Origin: Ruminococcus bovis
GTDB lineage: Bacteria > Bacillota > Clostridia > Oscillospirales > Acutalibacteraceae
NCBI RefSeq assembly: GCF_005601135.1
Contig: NZ_CP039381.1
Coordinates: forward strand, 989,941 to 1,053,940
Direction: 5' to 3'
DNA length: 64,000 nucleotides
Part shown: one piece after another, positions 7,997-33,941 of the stretch
Layout of the letters: each line of letters begins with the position of its first letter
Position numbering within the stretch: the first letter of the stretch is position 1
Notes under the pieces: model-generated
The model's input: only the letters and a program-made list of their open reading frames with translations
Database searches by the model: none
What the model was told of the DNA's origin: nothing
Program-made: the position numbers and the translations under genes

Positions 7997-9172
7997 ATGA
8001 TTTATATTGGAATTGATGTTGCTAAAGATAAACACGACTGTTTTATTACCAATTCAGATGGTGAAGTCTTATTTAAATCTTTTACTATCTCTAACAATCG
8101 TGAAGGCTTTGAAACCTTATTTCAAAAAGTACAATCCATTTTAGATGATTTAACAAAAGTAAAAGTAGGACTTGAAGCTACCGGACACTATAGTTACAAT
8201 CTTCTGGGATTTCTTCTTGATAAAGGTTTGCCGACCTACATTATCAATCCATTACATACAAATCTATACAGAAAAAGTTTAAGTCTTAGAAAGACGAAAA
8301 CAGATAAAGTTGATGCCCGTACAATTGCTTCTATGATTATGTCTGATGTGAACTTAAAGTCCTACACAAATACATCATACCACAATGAGGAGCTAAAGTC
8401 ACTAACTAGATACCGTTTTGATAAAGTAAAAGAAAGAGCAAAATTAAAATCTTCTATTTCTAGACTTGTATGTATCCTTTTTCCTGAATTAGAAAAACTC
8501 GTTCCTACACTTCATATGGCTTCAGTTTATGCCTTATTATCTGAATTTCCATCTGCTAATGCTATTGCATCTTCACACCTTACCAGACTTACCAATTTGC
8601 TATCTGAAAATTCACATGGACGATATGGTAAAGATACAGCCAATCTAATTCGTAATGCTGCCAGAAATTCTATTGGTTCACATATGCCGGCAAAATCCTT
8701 AGAACTAAAACACACTATTAAGCTTATCAAAGAATTAACTACTGAAATTAATGAAATTGAAACAGAAATCAAATCTATTATGGATAAAATTGATTCTCCA
8801 ATACTTACAATCCCAGGTATCGGTTACAATACAGGAGCTATGATTATCGCTGAAATTGGAGATTTCAATCGCTTTGATTCAGCTGATAAAATACTTGCAT
8901 ATGCAGGTATGTCACCTTCTACCTACCAATCCGGTCAATTAGAGAACTGCCATTCTCATATGGAAAAGCGTGGTTCAAGGTACTTACGATACGCTCTGTA
9001 CAATGCAACAAAATATGTTTGTTACTGGGATGAATCTTTCGGTGTATATCTTGGTAAGAAACGCTCAGAAGGCAAACATTACAATGTTGCATTATCCCAT
9101 GCAACAAAGAAACTTGTTCGCTTAATTTTTGCAATGGAGAAATCTAAACAACCATACCAACCAACAGTTTAA
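7997..9172 (+). CDS. IS110-family transposase (DEDD recombinase)
   Basis: The 391-residue product is an RNA-guided recombinase of the IS110 type. The N-terminal RuvC-like domain shows the DEDD residues in IGIDVAKDKHD (about residue 5), GLEATGHYSY (about 59) and KTDKVDARTIA (about 100). The C-terminal Tnp domain has a HhH-like LTIPGIGYNTGAMIIAEIGD (about 270) and SPSTYQSGQ (about 310), where the family's catalytic serine resides. ATG 7997 is preceded by AAGGAG at 7983-7988. The long 5' noncoding region places it in the IS110 rather than the IS1111 group, whose RNA is 3' of the gene. Confidence 0.95.
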   Translation: MIYIGIDVAKDKHDCFITNSDGEVLFKSFTISNNREGFETLFQKVQSILDDLTKVKVGLEATGHYSYNLLGFLLDKGLPTYIINPLHTNLYRKSLSLRKTKTDKVDARTIASMIMSDVNLKSYTNTSYHNEELKSLTRYRFDKVKERAKLKSSISRLVCILFPELEKLVPTLHMASVYALLSEFPSANAIASSHLTRLTNLLSENSHGRYGKDTANLIRNAARNSIGSHMPAKSLELKHTIKLIKELTTEINEIETEIKSIMDKIDSPILTIPGIGYNTGAMIIAEIGDFNRFDSADKILAYAGMSPSTYQSGQLENCHSHMEKRGSRYLRYALYNATKYVCYWDESFGVYLGKKRSEGKHYNVALSHATKKLVRLIFAMEKSKQPYQPTV

Positions 9173-9446: not shown

Positions 9447-9890
9447 TTATTTCTTACCGGTTGAGCCAAAACCACCTTCACCTCTAACTGTATCTTCCAG
9501 GGAAGATACTTCTTCCACATTCATTAGAGAAACAGGTGCAATAACCATCTGTGCAACCCTTTCATTAGGTTCAATTGTGTATGGTTTGTTAGAAACATTA
9601 CAAAGACCGACACAAACTTCACCACGGTAGTCACTATCCACAACACCAACACCGTTTGATAAACAAATACCGTGTTTGATACCAAGTCCACTTCTTGCAT
9701 AAATATTTGCCATAAAGTCTCCACTAGGTAGTTCAATTGCAATACCGGTAGGAATAGTTACAAGGTCACCGGGATTAATAACCACACTACTGTCAATACA
9801 AGCATAAAGGTCCATACCGGCTGAACCCTCAGTTGCTCTTTTAGGAATAACTGCATTTTCTTTTAACTTTTTTATCTTAAGAACATTCAT
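9447..9890 (-). CDS. dut: Deoxyuridine 5'-triphosphate nucleotidohydrolase
   Basis: Trimeric dUTPase that hydrolyses dUTP to dUMP, protecting DNA from uracil and feeding thymidylate synthesis. All five motifs are present in the 147 residues: AGMDLYA (about 24), ARSG (about 64), SNGVGVVDSDYRGEV (about 77, with the catalytic Asp), NERVAQMVIAPV (about 107) and the C-terminal RGEGGFGSTG. The start has a GGAGTAG-like site just upstream. It is a single-gene unit between the displaced mreB promoter and the U32 gene. Confidence 0.97.
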   Translation of the reverse strand: MNVLKIKKLKENAVIPKRATEGSAGMDLYACIDSSVVINPGDLVTIPTGIAIELPSGDFMANIYARSGLGIKHGICLSNGVGVVDSDYRGEVCVGLCNVSNKPYTIEPNERVAQMVIAPVSLMNVEEVSSLEDTVRGEGGFGSTGKK

Positions 9891-10115
9891 TTTTCTACTC
9901 CTTCTTGCAAAATTACATTAAATCTTGCAAAAATAAAACTATGTTGAATTTTAAATTTATTTATCAAAAAAATAATAATTTTACTTATATAAAATATTAC
10001 AACTTTTTAATGCTTTTTAAGAAGTATTACAAGGTTGTAAAGTTTCCCTCACATTGCAATGTTAATAATGTGGAAAACTTAAGTTATTATCATTCCTCAA
10101 AAATAGTTTTCCACA
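9891..10115. repeat. AT-rich gap with inverted TGTGGAAAAC boxes
   Basis: No convincing gene is present in this gap. TGTGGAAAACTT (10069-10080) and AGTTTTCCACA (10105-10115) form an inverted pair just beyond the 3' end of the U32 gene. Further TTTTCCAC boxes continue into that gene's coding end at 10190-10221. Confidence 0.5.
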
Positions 10116-12170
10116 CTATTTTATGCCCCTGAAGTACATTCCACGTGTATATGTTGTGGTTTGACTCCGTTTTCCATTGTTTTCCCCGTAGTTTTCCACC
10201 TTTTCCACAGAGTTTTCCACATAGAACTTTTCCATTGTGAAAAATGTGAAAAACTTTTTATTAATCTCTGAGAGAATATTAAGTGGTACGGAATTTAATA
10301 CTTCCACACAGTTTCCGTCACAATAAAGTGAAAATTCGTATTTTTTTCTATCCTGCATTTTTCCATGTTTTTTGCAAGTTCTACAGTCTTTTCTACCACT
10401 CTTTACAGGACAATTTCTTGTTAGCATTAGTGGAATATAGCCATAACTTACTAATCCTCGCTTAATATTACCACCTAAAGCGTTGATTTGTTCATCAGTA
10501 ATTTCAATAGAAACCAAAATATCATCAAGTCCATATTCTTCTGCCCACAAAACAGATGCAGTATTTGTGATGTTTAGGAATTCTCCACCATGAACATTAA
10601 AACCAAGTTCTTTACAAAAATAAACTGCACCTAAATTATTACACAAAGTATCATTGATACCCTTTGCCTTAAATTCTTTTAGCTTTTCTATAATCTTATC
10701 TTCTCTGCCAAAAAGTCCTCTAGGTACAGAAATACCGATTTTACTGCATTTTTTCTTAACTTTTTCTAAATCTTCATCACTGATTGTGATAGGTACAAAG
10801 ATTAAGTCATAGTCATTACCGATTTTATCATCAATTTTTCTTACTTCTGCTCTTTTTTCGGTAATTCTCTGGTCTGCCGGTGTAAAGTCAATTTCAGGCA
10901 TAGTAAAGTTATAATTATAATCAAAATCCCTTTTACTATCCATAATACCTAGAACTTCTCTTCTGATTTTGTTTAGGAAAGAGATTGGCACAGTAATACC
11001 CTCATCAATTTCAGTTTCGATATTACTAAAGTAATATGGTGTACCACCTGTCTTAGAAAGCTGAGAAACTGCTTTTTCTTCACTTAAAGCTACTTTTAGA
11101 GCCTTTTCACCCTTAACATCATCACAAGTAGTAATAACTACATTTTTACCGTCAGTTACTTCAAAGGTAGGACTTTCATTTTCTCTAAGTGTAAACTTTC
11201 CCTTTAAAGGTACTCTCTGCATTTCATCCTTATAAGAAGTCCTGATTTCTCTAAACAACTTTTCTGTAGCAGAAACTACATCTTCCTTTTTTCTATAGCC
11301 AAACATATGGTGACCTAAATGATTTGTATAATAACCGTCAGTAAAACCTGTACGAGAAAATACATTTTTTAGGTTTTCCATTGTAGCAGTAGAGATAAAG
11401 CCTTTTTCTCTCTTTTCATAACAAGCCTTAACTGCTGATGCAACATATTCAGGGCGTTTCATTCTACCCTCAATTTTAGCTGAAGTTACACCTATACTTT
11501 CCATATCATCAAGGTAATAAATAATAGAATTATCCTTTAGACTTAGTGCATGGTCACAACCGTCAACCTTAAAAGGCAATCTACAGGTCTGAGCACAGTA
11601 ACCTCTGTTGCCACTTCTACCACCAAGCATAGCAGAAAAATAACATTGACCACTGACACACATACATAATGCACCGTGGACAAATATTTCAAGTTCAATA
11701 TCAAGGTTATCTGCAATATACTTAATTTCTTCTCTTGACATTTCTCTACTAAGGACAACTCTGGTAAAGCCCATTTCTTTCAGTAATTTTGCACCACTTA
11801 AAGTATGAACACTCATTTGAGTTGAACCATGTAAATGAAGACTAGGACAAGCCTTGTGTACCATATTAGCAAAACCAATATCCTGTACAATAAGTGCATC
11901 AATGTTACATTCACAAGCCTTTTTCACACACTCTAATGCATCTTCCAATTCTCTGTCAAAGATAAGTGTGTTCATTGTTACATAGACTTTAACATTTCTA
12001 ATATGACAATATGAAGTTGTTTCTTTTAACTCTTCAAAAGAAAAGTTCTTTGCTTCTTTTCTTGCAGAAAAATCTTGTAAACCAAGATAAACTGCATCAG
12101 CTCCACTTCTTACTGCAGAAATAACTGACTCAAAGCTACCTGCCGGAGCTAAAATTTCAATTTTTTTCAT
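10116..12170 (-). CDS. U32 family peptidase-like protein (RlhA/TrhP type)
   Basis: Member of the U32 family, now linked to tRNA/rRNA hydroxylation (TrhP, RlhA) rather than proven proteolysis. The N-terminal barrel begins MKKIEILAPAGSFESVISAVRSGADAVYLG; the conserved Cys-rich core GALCMCVSGQCYFS and GNRGYCAQTCRLPF lies near 165-200. A DUF3656-like C-terminal half follows, with another Cys cluster NCPVKSGRKDCRTCKKHG near 600. At 684 residues it fits the longer, RlhA-like class. The last ~50 residues are low-complexity and rich in VEN/NGK; that DNA contains repeated TTTTCCAC boxes, so the tail may be an extension. It follows zapA by 11 nt. Confidence 0.85.
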   Translation of the reverse strand: MKKIEILAPAGSFESVISAVRSGADAVYLGLQDFSARKEAKNFSFEELKETTSYCHIRNVKVYVTMNTLIFDRELEDALECVKKACECNIDALIVQDIGFANMVHKACPSLHLHGSTQMSVHTLSGAKLLKEMGFTRVVLSREMSREEIKYIADNLDIELEIFVHGALCMCVSGQCYFSAMLGGRSGNRGYCAQTCRLPFKVDGCDHALSLKDNSIIYYLDDMESIGVTSAKIEGRMKRPEYVASAVKACYEKREKGFISTATMENLKNVFSRTGFTDGYYTNHLGHHMFGYRKKEDVVSATEKLFREIRTSYKDEMQRVPLKGKFTLRENESPTFEVTDGKNVVITTCDDVKGEKALKVALSEEKAVSQLSKTGGTPYYFSNIETEIDEGITVPISFLNKIRREVLGIMDSKRDFDYNYNFTMPEIDFTPADQRITEKRAEVRKIDDKIGNDYDLIFVPITISDEDLEKVKKKCSKIGISVPRGLFGREDKIIEKLKEFKAKGINDTLCNNLGAVYFCKELGFNVHGGEFLNITNTASVLWAEEYGLDDILVSIEITDEQINALGGNIKRGLVSYGYIPLMLTRNCPVKSGRKDCRTCKKHGKMQDRKKYEFSLYCDGNCVEVLNSVPLNILSEINKKFFTFFTMEKFYVENSVEKVENYGENNGKRSQTTTYTRGMYFRGIK

Positions 12171-12886: not shown

Positions 12887-13831
12887 ATGAATATGATAAC
12901 ACAAGAAGCAAAGAAAAAGCAAGCCATAGTAAAATACGCACTAAGAAAAGGAAAAAGCAAAGCAAGTAGAATGTACGGTGTAAGTCTTTCAAGCGTAAAG
13001 AGATGGTGTAAACAATATGACGGTACCTGGCAATCGCTATTGCCTAAATCACACAGACCACATAGTCATCCTAACAGGCACACAAAAAGAGAAGAAAGAC
13101 AAATTAGAAATTCTTTCAAAAAGTGCTATGAAAGATATGGATGGGATGGAGTATACAGTGATTTAAAGAGAAAAGGATATACAAGAAGCTACTCAGGAAT
13201 GATATATGCAGCTAAAAGAATGGGCTTAGTAAAATATAAAAAGACAAAGAAAAAGAGCCGTAAGCATAGAAGATATCCGGAACTGTTAATACCTGGAGAA
13301 AAGGTGCAGATAGATGTAAAAGAAGTGCCATATAATTGCTTAAGAGGTAAGGCTTTAAGGGACGGAAAGCATTTTTATCAATGGACTGCAATAGATGAAT
13401 GTACAAGGATGAGATTTGTATATGGGTTTGAAGAACACACACCTGAAAACTCAACCAAATTCTTGAAAATGTTATTGAAAGAATTTCCGTTTAAAATACA
13501 GACTATTCAAACAGATAACGGAAGAGAATTCACATATAAATATCAGAGCAGTGAAGTGAAAAGTCCTTTTGAAATAGAATTAAACAAACTAGGTATAAAT
13601 CATAAATTAATACCACCACGAACACCTTGGCACAACGGAAAGGTAGAAAGAAGTCATAGAAACGACCAAAAATATTTCTATGATTGGGAAACATTCAGAA
13701 ATATTGAAGAATTAAACACAAAATTAAAAGGACATTTGGAATGGAGTAATAACAAGACAATGAGAACACTTGATTATAAGAGTCCAATGCAGTTATTGAG
13801 TGAAAAGTTAGAATTGAAATCCATTCATTAA
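12887..13831 (+). CDS. DDE transposase (IS481/IS1202-like)
   Basis: The 314-residue protein has an N-terminal helix-turn-helix (KSKASRMYGVSLSSVKRWCKQY, about 23-44, split here only for description as SKASRMYG then VSLSSVKRW), a second HTH_29-like region and an rve integrase core: QIDVKEVPY (about 143), TDNGREFTY (about 208) and WHNGKVERSHRND (about 247) supply the D, D and E. The C-terminal LDYKSPMQLL is typical of integrase-core transposases. No stop codon or frameshift interrupts it, so it may be active. Start ATG lies directly after the right arm of the 5' inverted repeat. Confidence 0.93.
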   Translation: MNMITQEAKKKQAIVKYALRKGKSKASRMYGVSLSSVKRWCKQYDGTWQSLLPKSHRPHSHPNRHTKREERQIRNSFKKCYERYGWDGVYSDLKRKGYTRSYSGMIYAAKRMGLVKYKKTKKKSRKHRRYPELLIPGEKVQIDVKEVPYNCLRGKALRDGKHFYQWTAIDECTRMRFVYGFEEHTPENSTKFLKMLLKEFPFKIQTIQTDNGREFTYKYQSSEVKSPFEIELNKLGINHKLIPPRTPWHNGKVERSHRNDQKYFYDWETFRNIEELNTKLKGHLEWSNNKTMRTLDYKSPMQLLSEKLELKSIH

Positions 13832-22836: not shown

Positions 22837-23051
22837 GACTGTCTTACCTCTAAAATGTCATCATCAAGAGTAACTCTGTCACCGTTACGAATTTTTTTGC
22901 CTCTCATTGTGCAAATTTCTCCATTAACTGTAACAAAACCGTCTTGAATTAAGATTTTTGCTTGTCCACCGGTTTCAACCAGTCCTGCAAACTTTAACAA
23001 ATCCTGAAGTTTAATAAATTCTGTATCTATAAAAATTATTTGTTTTTCCAT
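22833..23051 (-). CDS. S4-domain RNA-binding protein (YaaA family)
   Basis: A 72-residue S4 protein found between dnaN and recF across Firmicutes. The S4 fold is seen in [20 protein letters not shown] and [26 protein letters not shown] (split: [25 protein letters not shown]). It probably binds structured RNA, perhaps on the ribosome. It starts within 1 nt of the dnaN stop (TAATG) and ends overlapping recF, so three genes are tightly coupled. Confidence 0.93.
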
Positions 23052-24148
23052 TATGATATTCTCATTGGTACGACTAGATATAGGAAGTCGTCACTTTTAA
23101 CCGGTTTAATAATCATAGGTGAAAGTCCACCATTTAAGATTAGTCTGATTTCGTCTGTTTCACAATTCTTAATTGCATCTAGTAAATATCTGTTGTTAAA
23201 GCCAATTTCAACATCATCACCTGCAATGGTAGTTCTGATACTGTCGTTAGCCTTACCCATAGATGTTTTACAAGTTAATTTAATTTCATCACTACTAAAT
23301 TCACATTTAACAGGGGATGGAATCTTTTCACTGGCAAGAAGACTCATTCTTTCTACTGCTGAGCTGATTTCTCTGGTATTTACAACTGCCTCGGTTGCAG
23401 TACCTGTTGGAATAGTTGAATTATAGTCAATAAACTGACCTTCAATTAGTCTGGAGATTACATAAAATGAACCGACTTTAAACAAAGTGTGTCTTTGACC
23501 GATTACAATTTCTACATTTTCTTCTTCATCAGTAATAAGTTTTAGTACTTCACTTTGAGTTTTCTTAGGAATTACAAAGCTGTTTTCTGAGTCACTGTCA
23601 ATTTGTTCCTTGCGAATAGCCATTCTGTAACCATCAATTGCAACAATAGTCATAATTTTGTCTTTGATTTCAAACAAAGAACCTGTATAAATTGGTTTTG
23701 ATGTGTTATCAGAAACTGCATATATAGTTTGGCGAATCATATCCTTTAGGATACCACCGTTAATAACAATCTTATCTGTTTCTTCAAACTTAGGTAAATC
23801 AGGATATTCGGCAGCTGACAAACCAACAATTTGGTAAGATGCATTACCACTTGTAATATAAGTAACCATTCTTTCATCAGTTTCGATAGTTACAACTTCT
23901 TCAGGTAACTTTCTGATAATGTCACCAAATAGCTTAGCAGAAACTACAATTTCACCTTCAGTATCAATTTGAACTTCAAGGTCAGTTGTAATTCCTATTT
24001 CAAGATCATAACCTGATAAATTTAGGTTACTGTCATATGCTTTTATTAATATACCTTCTAGGGAAGGTGTAGATGCTTTAGTTGCTACTGCTCTTTGAAC
24101 ACAAGTAACAGCATTGCTTAAATCTGTTCTTGAACAAGTAAATTTCAT
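23051..24148 (-). CDS. dnaN: DNA polymerase III sliding clamp (beta)
   Basis: Processivity clamp that rings DNA and tethers polymerase and repair enzymes. The 365 residues begin [20 protein letters not shown] and end YLVVPMRIS, close to the family's usual C-terminal PMR motif. Three clamp domains follow each other without obvious gaps. Its position downstream of dnaA across a 249-nt box-rich gap is the standard arrangement. Confidence 0.97.
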
Positions 24149-24397
24149 TTTAGTACCTTTCTTCCGTTTTTGCAGATTTTCCGTTTTAAATGAATTGATA
24201 TGTAAATTAAAATAGTAGTAGTATTAGAGTGTGTGAATTTGTAGAAAAACTCACAGTAGATTAGTTATCATCACATTTTTAACTCCTCACAGAAAATGTT
24301 GATAATTTTTCGGAATGTTGATAACTTTTTAAAATTCTAAAGTTTTCAACATTATGTGAATCTATGTGATGTTAATGTGTAAGGAAATGTGGAAAAC
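24149..24397. other. Candidate oriC (dnaA-dnaN intergenic region)
   Basis: The gap holds two TGTTGATAA sites 19 bp apart (24297-24305, 24316-24324), TTTTCAACA (24343-24351) and TGTGGAAAA (24388-24396, abutting the dnaA stop), all near-matches to the DnaA box TTATCCACA or its complement. The rest is A/T-rich. Gene strand switches just beyond dnaA, which agrees with an origin here or jointly with the dnaA-rpmH gap. Boxes are seen directly; origin function is inferred. Confidence 0.75.
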
Positions 24398-25714
24398 TTA
24401 TCTGTCTCTAATATTCTTAATTATGTCCTCAACAGACTCTTTTATATCATTATTTGTCTTCATATCTTTCTCAATATGTTCTGTTGCATACAGTACAGAT
24501 GAGTAGTGCATACCACCGAATTCTTTACCAACTTCTACAGCAGTTAAGTTAGTGATATTTCTTGCTATGTAGATTGCAATATGTCTTGCTTGGCTTAAGT
24601 CAGCTCTACGGCTCTTTGACTTTTTAATTTCATCAGGACTAAAGCCATAGTTTCTGGCAACTTCTTCAATAATCTTTTCTACTGTCAGTTCAGGTGGTGT
24701 GTCATCATTAAGAATATCGCTGATACCTTCTTTTACTACTGATAAAGATGGTTCTTCACCTGAAAGAAGAATTTTAGCCTTTAGTTTCTTTACAACACCC
24801 TCAAGCTGACGGATATTTGTTTTTAGATTTTTAGCAATATATTCACAAACATCATCACTTAGGTTAATACCAAGAATCTCAGACTTTCTTTTTACAATAG
24901 CAATTCTTGTTTCAATATCAGGTGGCTGAATATCAGCAAGTAAACCTGACTCAAAACGAGAACGAAGTCTTTCTTCCAAAGTCTTAATTTCTCTTGGAGG
25001 TCTATCTGATGTAAGAACAATCTGTTTATTAGCTTCATAAAGAGCATTAAATGTATGGAAGAATTCTTCCTGAGTCTGTTCCTTACCACCAATAAACTGA
25101 ATATCGTCCACCAAAAGAACATCAGCGTTTCTGTATTTGTTTCTAAGTCCTGAAGTTGAACCTTTTCTGATAGCCTCAACAAGTTCGTTAGTAAAATCAT
25201 CACCCTTAACATATACTATATTAGTTTCAGGATGATTTTTCTTTATTTCATTACTAATGGCACAAAGCAAGTGAGTTTTTCCAAGTCCACTGTGACCATA
25301 AAGAAAAAGAGGGTTATAAGCACCGGCTGGGTTTTGAGCAACTGCAATTGAAGCAGCATGAGCAAACTTGTTGGATGAACCTACAATAAAAGTATCAAAT
25401 GTAAAGTCATATCCTGTTTCAGCCGTTGACTTCTGTTCTTTTTCTTGAATGTTATTTACTTCTTGTGGAACTTGAAAAACAATTTGAAAATGAGTTCCAA
25501 AAACACTATCAAATGCATCATTTAAAAGTGGAATATAACATTTCTGGAGTGTTTGTCTGTGAAAATCATTTGGAACTAAAAGAGTAACTTCTCCCTTATC
25601 AAAGTCAAGACTTACAGGTTCAATCTTTTTAATCCAAACATCATATGCAAAAGTAGTTGTGTTGTTTTTACAATATTCACATATAATATTCCACGCCTCA
25701 TTAAACGAATCCAT
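24398..25714 (-). CDS. dnaA: Chromosomal replication initiator DnaA
   Basis: AAA+ initiator that binds oriC boxes and opens the duplex. Domain I is residues 1-~80, a short linker follows, then the AAA+ core with Walker A GHSGLGKTHLL (140-150), Walker B VLLVDDIQFIGG (about 200) and RLRSRFESGL. Domain IV has SRRADLSQARHIAIYIARN, but the usual RDH(S/T)TV helix reads FGGMHYSSVLYA, replacing residues that contact the DnaA box in other species. 438 residues. Expression likely starts from the TTGCAA/TATAAT promoter at 25802-25830. Confidence 0.97.
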   Translation of the reverse strand: MDSFNEAWNIICEYCKNNTTTFAYDVWIKKIEPVSLDFDKGEVTLLVPNDFHRQTLQKCYIPLLNDAFDSVFGTHFQIVFQVPQEVNNIQEKEQKSTAETGYDFTFDTFIVGSSNKFAHAASIAVAQNPAGAYNPLFLYGHSGLGKTHLLCAISNEIKKNHPETNIVYVKGDDFTNELVEAIRKGSTSGLRNKYRNADVLLVDDIQFIGGKEQTQEEFFHTFNALYEANKQIVLTSDRPPREIKTLEERLRSRFESGLLADIQPPDIETRIAIVKRKSEILGINLSDDVCEYIAKNLKTNIRQLEGVVKKLKAKILLSGEEPSLSVVKEGISDILNDDTPPELTVEKIIEEVARNYGFSPDEIKKSKSRRADLSQARHIAIYIARNITNLTAVEVGKEFGGMHYSSVLYATEHIEKDMKTNNDIKESVEDIIKNIRDR

Positions 25715-30015: not shown

Positions 30016-31884
30016 ATGGGATATAATGCAGGTAATTTTGATGTAGCAGTTATTGGTGCAGGTCATGCCGGAATTGAGGCAGCACTTGCATCTGCTAGAC
30101 TAGGATGTAAAACAATAATTTTCACAATTAACAATGATGCAGTTGGTAACTGCCCATGTAATCCATCAATCGGTGGTACTGCAAAGGGACATTTAGTAAG
30201 AGAAATTGATGCCCTTGGTGGTGAAATGGGTAAGACTGCTGATGAGTGTTTCTTACAGATGAGAATGTTGAACAGAGGTAAAGGACCGGCTGTACATTCT
30301 CTAAGAGCACAAATTGACAGAAGAAAATATGCCGATACTATGAAGCATAAGATTGAACTTCAAGAGAACCTAATCCTTCGTCAAGCTGAAATCACTGAAC
30401 TTGACAGAGATAATGACGGTACTTGGAAGCTAAAGACAAGAATGGATGCGATTTTTACTGCGAAAGCAGTAGTTATTGCTACAGGTACTTATTTAGGTGG
30501 TAGAATTTTTGTAGGTGAAACTTCTTATGAAAGTGGACCTGACGGTATTTTTCCGGCAAAATTCTTAGGTGCAAGTCTAAAAAATCTTGGTTTAAAGTTA
30601 AGAAGATTTAAAACAGGTACACCGGCTAGAGTACTTAGAAGTTCTATTGATTTTTCTGACCTTGAAGTACAAGAGGGTGATGTGCCACCTGTACCATTTA
30701 GTTATGATACTGAAAGTCTAGGTGATAACAAGGTAGTATGCCATATTTCTTGGACTAACGAAAAGACTAAGGAAATTATTTTGAATAATATTCAGAGAAG
30801 TCCACTATATGCCGGTAAAATTGAGGGTGTAGGCCCTAGATATTGCCCAAGTATTGAAGATAAGATTGTTAGATTCAGCAATAAGCAAAGACATCAGCTA
30901 TTTATTGAACCTTGTGGTCTTGAAACAGAAGAAATGTATTTGCAAGGTATGAGTTCATCACTACCTGAAGAAGTACAAACAGAATTCTATCATAGTATCA
31001 AGGGTCTTGAAAATGCAGTTATTATGCGTCCGGCTTATGCTATTGAATATGATTGTATTGACCCAACTCAGATGGATAATACTCTTGAGTTTAGAGATTT
31101 TTCAGGGTTATATGGTGCAGGTCAGTTTAACGGTAGTAGTGGTTATGAAGAGGCTGCTGCCCAAGGTTTAATTGCCGGTATAAATGCTGCACTAAAGGTA
31201 CAAGGCAGAGAACCATTTATTCTAGACAGAGCATCATCATATATTGGTACTTTAGTTGATGACCTAGTTACTAAAGGTTGTAATGAACCATATAGAATGA
31301 TGACTTCCCGTAGTGAATACAGACTTATTCTTCGTCAAGATAATGCTGATGTAAGACTTACACCACTTGGCAGAGAAATTGGTCTTATTACTGATGAAAG
31401 ATGGAATAAATATCTTAATAAACAAGAACTTAAGAAAGAAGAGTACAAGCGTATTAAGAATACTGTTCTTTCTCCAACTGATGAGTTAAACAACATACTT
31501 GTTTCACGTGAAACATCTCAGGTAACTACAGGTGTTAGAATGATTGACCTATTAAAAAGACCTCAGCTAAATTATGATTGTTTAACTGAGGTTGATAAGG
31601 ATAGACCTAATATTGACCATAATATTTTTGAACAAGTTGAAATTGAGATAAAATATGAGGGTTATATTAAGAAACAACTTGAACAAGTTGAGAAAATGCG
31701 TAAGTTAGAGAAAAAGCTACTACCTAAAGATGTTAACTATAAGACTGTTACAGGTTTAAGACTAGAGGCTCAAGAAAAGCTAAACAATGTTAAACCTGAT
31801 AATATTGGTCAAGCATCAAGGATCAGTGGTGTTTCACCGGCAGATATTAGTGTACTACTTATTTGGCTAACTCAAAGAGGTTAA
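30016..31884 (+). CDS. mnmG: tRNA modification FAD enzyme MnmG (GidA)
   Basis: FAD-dependent partner of MnmE. The Rossmann motif AVIGAGHAGIEAALA (about 10-24), the family signature GPRYCPSIEDKIVRF (about 275) and GCNEPYRMMTSRSEYRL (about 420) are clear. 622 residues. A perfect 16-bp parS lies inside the coding region (31500-31515). The gene starts 1 nt after mnmE and is followed at once by a small unknown gene. Confidence 0.97.
   Translation: MGYNAGNFDVAVIGAGHAGIEAALASARLGCKTIIFTINNDAVGNCPCNPSIGGTAKGHLVREIDALGGEMGKTADECFLQMRMLNRGKGPAVHSLRAQIDRRKYADTMKHKIELQENLILRQAEITELDRDNDGTWKLKTRMDAIFTAKAVVIATGTYLGGRIFVGETSYESGPDGIFPAKFLGASLKNLGLKLRRFKTGTPARVLRSSIDFSDLEVQEGDVPPVPFSYDTESLGDNKVVCHISWTNEKTKEIILNNIQRSPLYAGKIEGVGPRYCPSIEDKIVRFSNKQRHQLFIEPCGLETEEMYLQGMSSSLPEEVQTEFYHSIKGLENAVIMRPAYAIEYDCIDPTQMDNTLEFRDFSGLYGAGQFNGSSGYEEAAAQGLIAGINAALKVQGREPFILDRASSYIGTLVDDLVTKGCNEPYRMMTSRSEYRLILRQDNADVRLTPLGREIGLITDERWNKYLNKQELKKEEYKRIKNTVLSPTDELNNILVSRETSQVTTGVRMIDLLKRPQLNYDCLTEVDKDRPNIDHNIFEQVEIEIKYEGYIKKQLEQVEKMRKLEKKLLPKDVNYKTVTGLRLEAQEKLNNVKPDNIGQASRISGVSPADISVLLIWLTQRG
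31500..31515. promoter_or_regulatory. parS site inside mnmG
   Basis: TGTTTCACGTGAAACA, a perfect 16-bp palindrome identical to the conserved ParB-binding site. It encodes ordinary residues of MnmG (VSRETS). Confidence 0.95.
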
Positions 31885-32104: not shown

Positions 32105-32808
32105 TAGAAACTCTGGTAAATGCTCTTGCAAAAGAAAATGTTACATTAAATGATACTCAAATAGGCCAATTTAAAAAGTATTATCAGTTGCTTATAGAGT
32201 GGAATAAAAAAATGAACCTTACTGCAATAACTGAACCAACAGAAGTTGCAATTAAGCACTTTTATGATAGTATCACTTTTCTTTTCCACACAGATATAAA
32301 AGAATGTGGAAAAGTAATTGATGTTGGTACAGGTGCAGGTTTTCCCGGTATACCTTTAAAAATTATGAGACCTGACATTCAATTAACTTTGCTTGATAGC
32401 CTTAATAAAAGACTTATATTTTTACAAGAAGTTTGCGATAATATAGGTATTGATGCTGAGATTATTCATAAAAGAGCAGAAGAAGGTGGCAGAGATAAGA
32501 ATTTAAGAGAGAAATTCGATATTGCCACATCTCGTGCAGTTGCCAATATGAATACACTTTCAGAATATTTAATGCCATTCGTTAAGGTAAAAGGCAAAAT
32601 GGTTGCTATGAAAGGCAAAAACGGTGCTGAGGAACTTGAAAATGCAAAAGGTGCAATTAAAACTCTTAACGGTGAAATTGTAAAGTGTGATGAATTCTTA
32701 TTACCTAACGGTGATGAAAGAACTATCATTGTTGTAAATAAAAAATCCCATACACCAATGCAGTATCCAAGACAAGGTGGCAAAATAAAGAACAATCCAC
32801 TTAAATAA
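32101..32808 (+). CDS. rsmG: 16S rRNA m7G527 methyltransferase RsmG (GidB)
   Basis: SAM-dependent methyltransferase acting on G527 of 16S rRNA. Motif I is DVGTGAGFPGIPLKI (about 76-90), preceded by the family WNKKMNLTAI (about 34). TSRAVANMNTL near 143 is also typical. 235 residues, normal length. It ends the mnmE-mnmG unit before a terminator. Confidence 0.96.
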   Translation: MIETLVNALAKENVTLNDTQIGQFKKYYQLLIEWNKKMNLTAITEPTEVAIKHFYDSITFLFHTDIKECGKVIDVGTGAGFPGIPLKIMRPDIQLTLLDSLNKRLIFLQEVCDNIGIDAEIIHKRAEEGGRDKNLREKFDIATSRAVANMNTLSEYLMPFVKVKGKMVAMKGKNGAEELENAKGAIKTLNGEIVKCDEFLLPNGDERTIIVVNKKSHTPMQYPRQGGKIKNNPLK

Positions 32809-33925: not shown

Positions 33926-33941
33926 TGTTTCACGTGAAACA
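33926..33941. promoter_or_regulatory. parS site upstream of parA
   Basis: Second perfect TGTTTCACGTGAAACA, between the noc terminator and parA. A half site, GTGAAACA, follows 8 nt later. Confidence 0.96.

Follow-up and report, generated by a model that had tools for sequence, protein, structure and literature searches.

Clusters of DnaA boxes that lie outside oriC have been argued to help set the timing of replication; their origin and persistence are poorly known. Six such clusters are present in Bacillus subtilis (Okumura et al. 2012), and loss of all six leads to earlier initiation (PMC5295017, PMC13220808). As far as these accounts go, DnaA can be overproduced in B. subtilis without over-initiation, the role of the clusters is weak, and none has been identified with a significant role (PMC5295017, PMC13220808). 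In Escherichia coli, datA, DARS1 and DARS2, each a compact set of DnaA boxes located elsewhere than at oriC, act on DnaA (PMC5295017), and single boxes accumulate near oriC with a lagging-strand bias (PMC12371093). A DnaA site within a gene is also on record: that of B. subtilis rplB, seen in vitro, whose stable binding in vivo is doubted (PMC4447404).

The array described here, site A, resembles the B. subtilis clusters in being a group of DnaA boxes outside oriC in a Firmicute, datA and the DARS sites in its compactness and its position away from oriC, and the rplB site in lying within a reading frame. It differs from the B. subtilis clusters, as the reviews describe them, in having a fixed three-box layout that is kept by codon choice and is common to one other site (site B); from datA and DARS, described as non-coding in the account consulted (PMC4585315), in being coding; and from the rplB site in its codon-level conservation, which does not figure in the available description of rplB (PMC4447404). 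DnaA-box clusters outside oriC are thus already known, and it is the coding location with frozen synonymous sites, together with the layout common to site B, that sets site A apart. A literature search, which covered few subscription journals, found no account of synonymous codon choice preserving DnaA boxes, nor of a cluster linked to U32. We consider it rather probable that site A is an origin-proximal DnaA-binding array outside oriC, placed in the last codons of a U32 gene, which takes up DnaA after initiation.

The window analysed is a stretch of 64,000 nucleotides (G000:C1:989941-1053940) within a single contig of 2,440,231 bases of the focal genome, G000. Its U32-family gene (10116-12170, minus strand; Peptidase_U32 and DUF3656 domains) contains site A at its 3′ end and is followed by dut, encoding dUTPase (9447-9890, minus strand). 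The dut-U32-zapA block is flanked by an IS110-family transposase (7997-9172) and an rve-type transposase (12887-13831). The gene for the presumed binder of the boxes, dnaA (24398-25714, minus strand), is separated from dnaN (23051-24148, minus strand) by a gap (24149-24397, no strand assigned) that we take as the probable oriC because it contains TAGTAGTAGTA (24213-24223), two copies of TGTTGATAA (24297-24305 and 24316-24324), TTTTCAACA (24343-24351) and TGTGGAAAA (24388-24396); the first of these is presumably a DnaA-trio. The GC skew switches sign around 25-26 kb of the window. Site A lies about 14 kb from the gap, in agreement with the distance to oriC given in a preliminary description of this DNA. 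It lacks the features sought in an oriC, which would be located next to dnaA, where the GC skew switches, and would include a DnaA-trio or an unwinding element; no TAG-repeat was seen by eye in 10060-10260. The window also contains two perfect parS-like sites, TGTTTCACGTGAAACA, at 31500-31515 and 33926-33941; parS was rejected as the identity of the boxes, as these sites are located elsewhere and differ in sequence.

In the genus, U32 is found downstream of dnaA at a distance of 9.5-43.5 kb in 21/21 genomes with both genes on one contig, on the dnaA strand in 18 and on the opposite strand in 3; the other 14 of the 35 genus genomes with both genes have them on different contigs. In G046, a box-free relative from another genus, U32 is likewise near oriC, at 22 kb.

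The preliminary description had reported at least five boxes in both orientations within 153 bp, three of them in coding sequence, and this is what was found. Five copies of TTTTCCAC lie within 10069-10221, at 10070-10077 (minus), 10107-10114, 10192-10199, 10201-10208 and 10213-10220 (all plus), and the last three (10192-10220) are inside the U32 reading frame, where they encode VENSVEKVEN in the final codons. On the minus (gene) strand these make up site A (10192-10221), which was recognised from its sequence, positions and conservation: three head-to-tail boxes, TGTGGAAAA at 10221-10213, TGTGGAAAA at 10209-10201 and GGTGGAAAA at 10200-10192, reading TGTGGAAAAC-TC-TGTGGAAAA-GGTGGAAAAC, with 9-mers at 0, +12 and +21 all in the same direction. 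It is clear that the cluster combines several close matches to the DnaA box in a short stretch with a position outside oriC. Outside the frame, one copy of TTTTCCACA abuts the U32 stop codon on its downstream side (10107-10115, plus strand) and another, inverted relative to it, lies in the intergenic gap between U32 and dut (10069-10077, minus strand); boxes just past the stop codon are also present in G019 and not in the near relative G022. Two adjacent variants, TTTTTCACA, which are not generally conserved, are found beside the cluster in the U32 frame (10236-10253, minus strand). In the window as a whole TTTTCCAC occurs 21 times, compared to an expectation of 4.2, and 0/100 shuffles reached 21.

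The site A array is kept at the DNA level. The same-genus set, of gut bacteria, comprised 40 genomes, the focal one included, of which 39 have U32 (in G006 the match was no more than weak and partial). In every one of the 39 tails there is a pair of boxes, at 0 and +12, with a score of 17/18 or higher against TGTKGAWAA; homologues with the tail and without the boxes, which by the preliminary description would refute its proposal, numbered 0/39. At +21, a third box reaches 8/9 or more in 16 of the 30 tabulated genus loci and 7 or more in 25 of them. The 30 proteins are 51-56% identical to the focal one (G022, 71%), and the excess of synonymous identity among their genes peaks at the boxes, where the value of 0.344 ranks first of 567 nine-codon windows (mean 0, sd 0.065). 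This windowed pairwise test of 30 loci is the one relied upon, with relatedness not fully corrected for. A single-column codon test (353 columns) was less clean, because related genes have codons in common, and its best column lies off the array: Ser at codon 173 is TCG in 24/30 genus genes, against 4.5 expected, the strongest single codon preference of the gene.

The codons of the tail show conservation beyond the protein's need. In the codon preceding box 1 and in that preceding box 2, the third position is T in 60/60 cases over the 30 genes (24.7 expected), and yet the residue varies between S, T, Y, N and F. In 29 of the 30 loci (L015 was left out of these codon counts, the windowed test and box scores using all 30), tail valine is GTG 65 times and GTT 17 times out of 82, with GTA and GTC at 0, compared to 502/1317 in the rest of the gene; glutamate is GAA in 84/84 cases and asparagine AAC in 56/58. 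A GTT at the valine gives TGTTGAAAA, and boxes with GTG and with GTT both occur beside dnaA too. In the G023 tail, aspartate replaces glutamate and the canonical box TGTGGATAA results.

Selection on a VEN-rich protein tail alone, or chance repeat expansion, is scarcely credible as an explanation of these data. The end of the tail (TRG...RGV) is indeed conserved as protein with and without boxes, but the synonymous sites are frozen under the boxes and the same layout recurs outside the U32 gene; protein-only selection and plain repeat expansion were both rejected on the codon evidence. The repeat expansion offered in the preliminary description as the origin of the tail is insufficient alone, because the layout recurs at the mostly non-coding site B and because, beyond the genus, the tail at this position is FTTES-like and free of boxes in most relatives. 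The tail had also been described as VEN/NGK-rich: the VENSVEKVEN under the array is shared, whereas, of the genus tails compared, the focal one alone has NGK. Preservation of the boxes appears, rather, to have shaped the U32 protein tail; this would be a clear example of protein sequence dictated in part by an element in the DNA. Since the array is conserved across the genus inside a gene, the constraints on protein and DNA are separable by synonymous recoding.

Outside the genus 65 genomes matched U32, and the tail counts for other genera of the family were drawn from 55 of these. The two-box array, full or slightly degenerate (at least 16/18), is present in 8/28 tails from other genera of the family and in one (G076) of the 23 tails read among 27 further ones fetched, L220, L227, L230 and L248 giving no frame. 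Among tails from outside the family it occurs in 0/29 (best 14/18), two of them having a single TGTTGAAAA. On a tree of 52 U32 proteins, built from the first 600 residues and hence without the tail, the 21 rows with the full array (at least 17) all fall within one clade of 36 rows (support 96/94), and the focal genus clade has the array in 13/13 rows. The distribution needs 8 changes, 5 of them forced by well-supported branches, so that the array has been gained or lost repeatedly.

The layout is not confined to U32. The composite TGTKGAAAACTMTGTKGAA was searched for in 50 genomes, 40 from the genus and 10 others mostly picked for boxes in their U32 tails, and gave 67 matches in 42 of them, at one to three copies per genome, compared to 0 with the pattern reversed. 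Judged by coordinates, U32 accounts for 40 of these matches; the other 27, spread over 25 genomes, lie elsewhere, and 26 of them were examined, in 24 loci, the remaining one being that of G046 (L253). In 22 of these 24 loci (not L261 or L267) homologues of a 102-aa ORF, a DUF6512 protein and/or rlmB adjoin the site. This second site, site B, lies upstream of the small 102-aa ORF, DUF6512 and rlmB, and is mostly non-coding, 24 of the 26 matches being in no open frame of at least 100 codons. In the focal genome it is found at L294 301-330, up to G000:C1:1234666, about 220 kb from oriC. Its boxes are often TGTTGATAA or TGTGGATAA, and in G016 a run of 30 identical bases is common to site B and the U32 tail. 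A natural comparison with site A is offered by the same layout at a second place.

Upstream of rlmB, two boxes of at least 8/9 at 0 and +12 are present in 22/25 genomes, while neither shuffled stretches (0/100) nor control stretches taken mostly from rlmB itself (0/25) have them. The exceptions are G013, where the boxes are weaker (9 and 7), G046, which has none, and G117, where an array lies beside the 102-aa ORF elsewhere. In the wider family, a broader composite pattern was found in 30/80 genomes (reversed control 0). A homologue of the 102-aa ORF is beside the match in 9 of the 30 loci (G090, G067, G117, G082, G052, G041, G102, G109 and G054), and in three of these nine (G067, G082 and G109) an open frame of at least 100 codons overlaps the match. 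As far as the tails were read, site B is present without site A in G041, G052, G090, G102 and G109.

That the array is a conserved RNA element in the U32 transcript, and not a DNA-binding site, is very improbable. The focal strand does fold better than its own shuffles (z -6.1), mainly via the inverted pair past the stop codon, but RNAalifold gave 0 pairs for 12 of the 30 genus sequences, boxes in the same orientation are unable to pair with each other, site B faces the opposite way relative to its own gene, and Rfam returned one sub-threshold hit (E 0.64).

It is also unlikely, if somewhat less so, that DnaA on site A acts on transcription, controlling dut and the genes beyond it or blocking U32 read-through, in time with the replication cycle. 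Such a role would fit the gene order, dut following U32 in 29 of 30 genus loci with the contig ending there in the other, and also the setting of site B, which immediately precedes a gene and has conserved TATAC and TATTATTC motifs next to it (in the site B alignment L290, L291 and partly L272 are badly cut and were given no weight). However, dut is a common neighbour of U32 with or without boxes, following it in 12/20 box-free family loci compared to 6/8 with boxes, which leaves the link to dut ambiguous, and in L139 the array is present with no dut within 10 kb. Further, the orientation of site A relative to the following gene is the opposite of that of site B, and no promoter-like motif was seen beside site A in an alignment of 12 loci. 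The role that we infer is to limit free DnaA and not to regulate transcription.

The identification of the boxes with those of DnaA was examined by comparison with the region beside dnaA. In the 300 bp past dnaA of 23 genus genomes, TGTTGATAA occurs 11 times, TGTTGAAAA 10 times and TGTGGAAAA 5 times, where mononucleotide shuffles, used as the expectation, gave 0.2, 0.4 and 0.0 (together 0.6); TGTGGATAA occurs 0 times there (shuffles 0.1), a point against the DnaA reading. The variants of the site A boxes match those of the dnaA-dnaN gap, and in G081 the composite itself has one match about 80 bases from the 3′ end of dnaA. Among 24 genus DnaA proteins the recognition-helix motif has HY in 17 (focal GGMHYSS), DH in 6 and HH in 1; B. 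subtilis DnaA has DH, the usual reading. These residues presumably contact the box, and the U32 tails of both the HY and the DH groups have boxes. This variation in DnaA while the boxes stay the same, and a composite far more specific than single boxes at one to three copies per genome, would be expected if a regulator other than DnaA read the TGTKGAWAAC direct repeats. Such a regulator is nevertheless improbable, as the array agrees, in its letters and in the changes it tolerates, with the boxes beside dnaA, and the canonical box is one of its variants. Judged by its sequence, the array very probably binds DnaA.

In the focal genome the boxes are also concentrated around the origin. The genome as a whole has 88 copies of TTTTCCACA (73 of the reversed pattern), most densely grouped at the U32 3′ end, with 4 in 153 bp compared to at most 2 in 160 bp elsewhere. 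Within 50 kb of oriC there are 24 of the 88, compared to 3.6 expected (binomial p about 9e-14), or 20 sites with the U32 cluster excluded, and the leading strand carries TGTGGAAAA in 20/24. For copies in the inner 100 kb, TTTTCCACA ranks first among 1260 letter permutations, the next two being shifted versions of the same word. The textbook box TTATCCACA shows no comparable concentration, with 65 sites in the focal genome and 5 in the inner 100 kb. This enrichment near oriC with a strand bias is like the accumulation described for E. coli (PMC12371093), although the latter is a statistical enrichment of single boxes and site A is one conserved array; further, the enrichment seen here is not general in other genomes of the genus. 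In seven of these, where it had been expected, TGTGGAAAAC has 4 to 11 sites each, similar to the reversed control, with no general enrichment genome-wide or near oriC. In G046, from another genus, 7 of 34 sites are within 25 kb of dnaA (0.7 expected), by a cut-off picked afterwards, and in G085 0/12 are. Taken together, the conservation at the DNA level, the variants common to the dnaA-dnaN gap and the concentration around oriC in the focal genome lend good support to the earlier description of the boxes as DnaA-like. Inverted pairs of TTTTCCACA whose arms are separated by 14-15 bases were also observed at three places, window 32282-32313 (inside gidB), G000:C1:900011-900042 and G000:C1:228578-228610.

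How site A might work can be suggested from its layout and position. Steps of 12 and 9 bases would place neighbouring DnaA molecules close enough to touch, most likely side by side along the three head-to-tail boxes (0, +12 and +21). Replication reaches the site soon after initiation, and for this reason site A would most likely take up DnaA shortly after its own duplication and so lower the amount available at oriC just after firing, an uptake of the kind proposed for the B. subtilis clusters and datA. Counting against such a putative sink, which the preliminary description had likened to a titration site, are the nearness of U32 to oriC in the box-free G046 and the lack of general TGTGGAAAAC enrichment in the seven genus genomes. 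Whether the array plays a part in the control of initiation we regard as evenly balanced.

It is possible, though doubtful, that the clade has a two-locus DnaA control system in which sites A and B are the clostridial counterpart of datA and DARS and the small ORF is a DnaA-controlled cell-cycle protein. Site B would then be the more widespread of the two. Site A, a further array with this layout, would have originated within the U32 frame close to oriC, converting an FTTES-like tail into a VENSVEN-like one. The 102-aa ORF (L250 2211-2519 and its homologues; L294 about 470-736) lies downstream of site B in several genera, and matched nothing in Pfam and nothing meaningful in NCBIfam. The composite occurs a third time in G032 (L273 1718) and G034 (L274 13345), about 10-11 kb from the other match; the G032 copy is about 140 bp upstream of an ORF of 597 aa.
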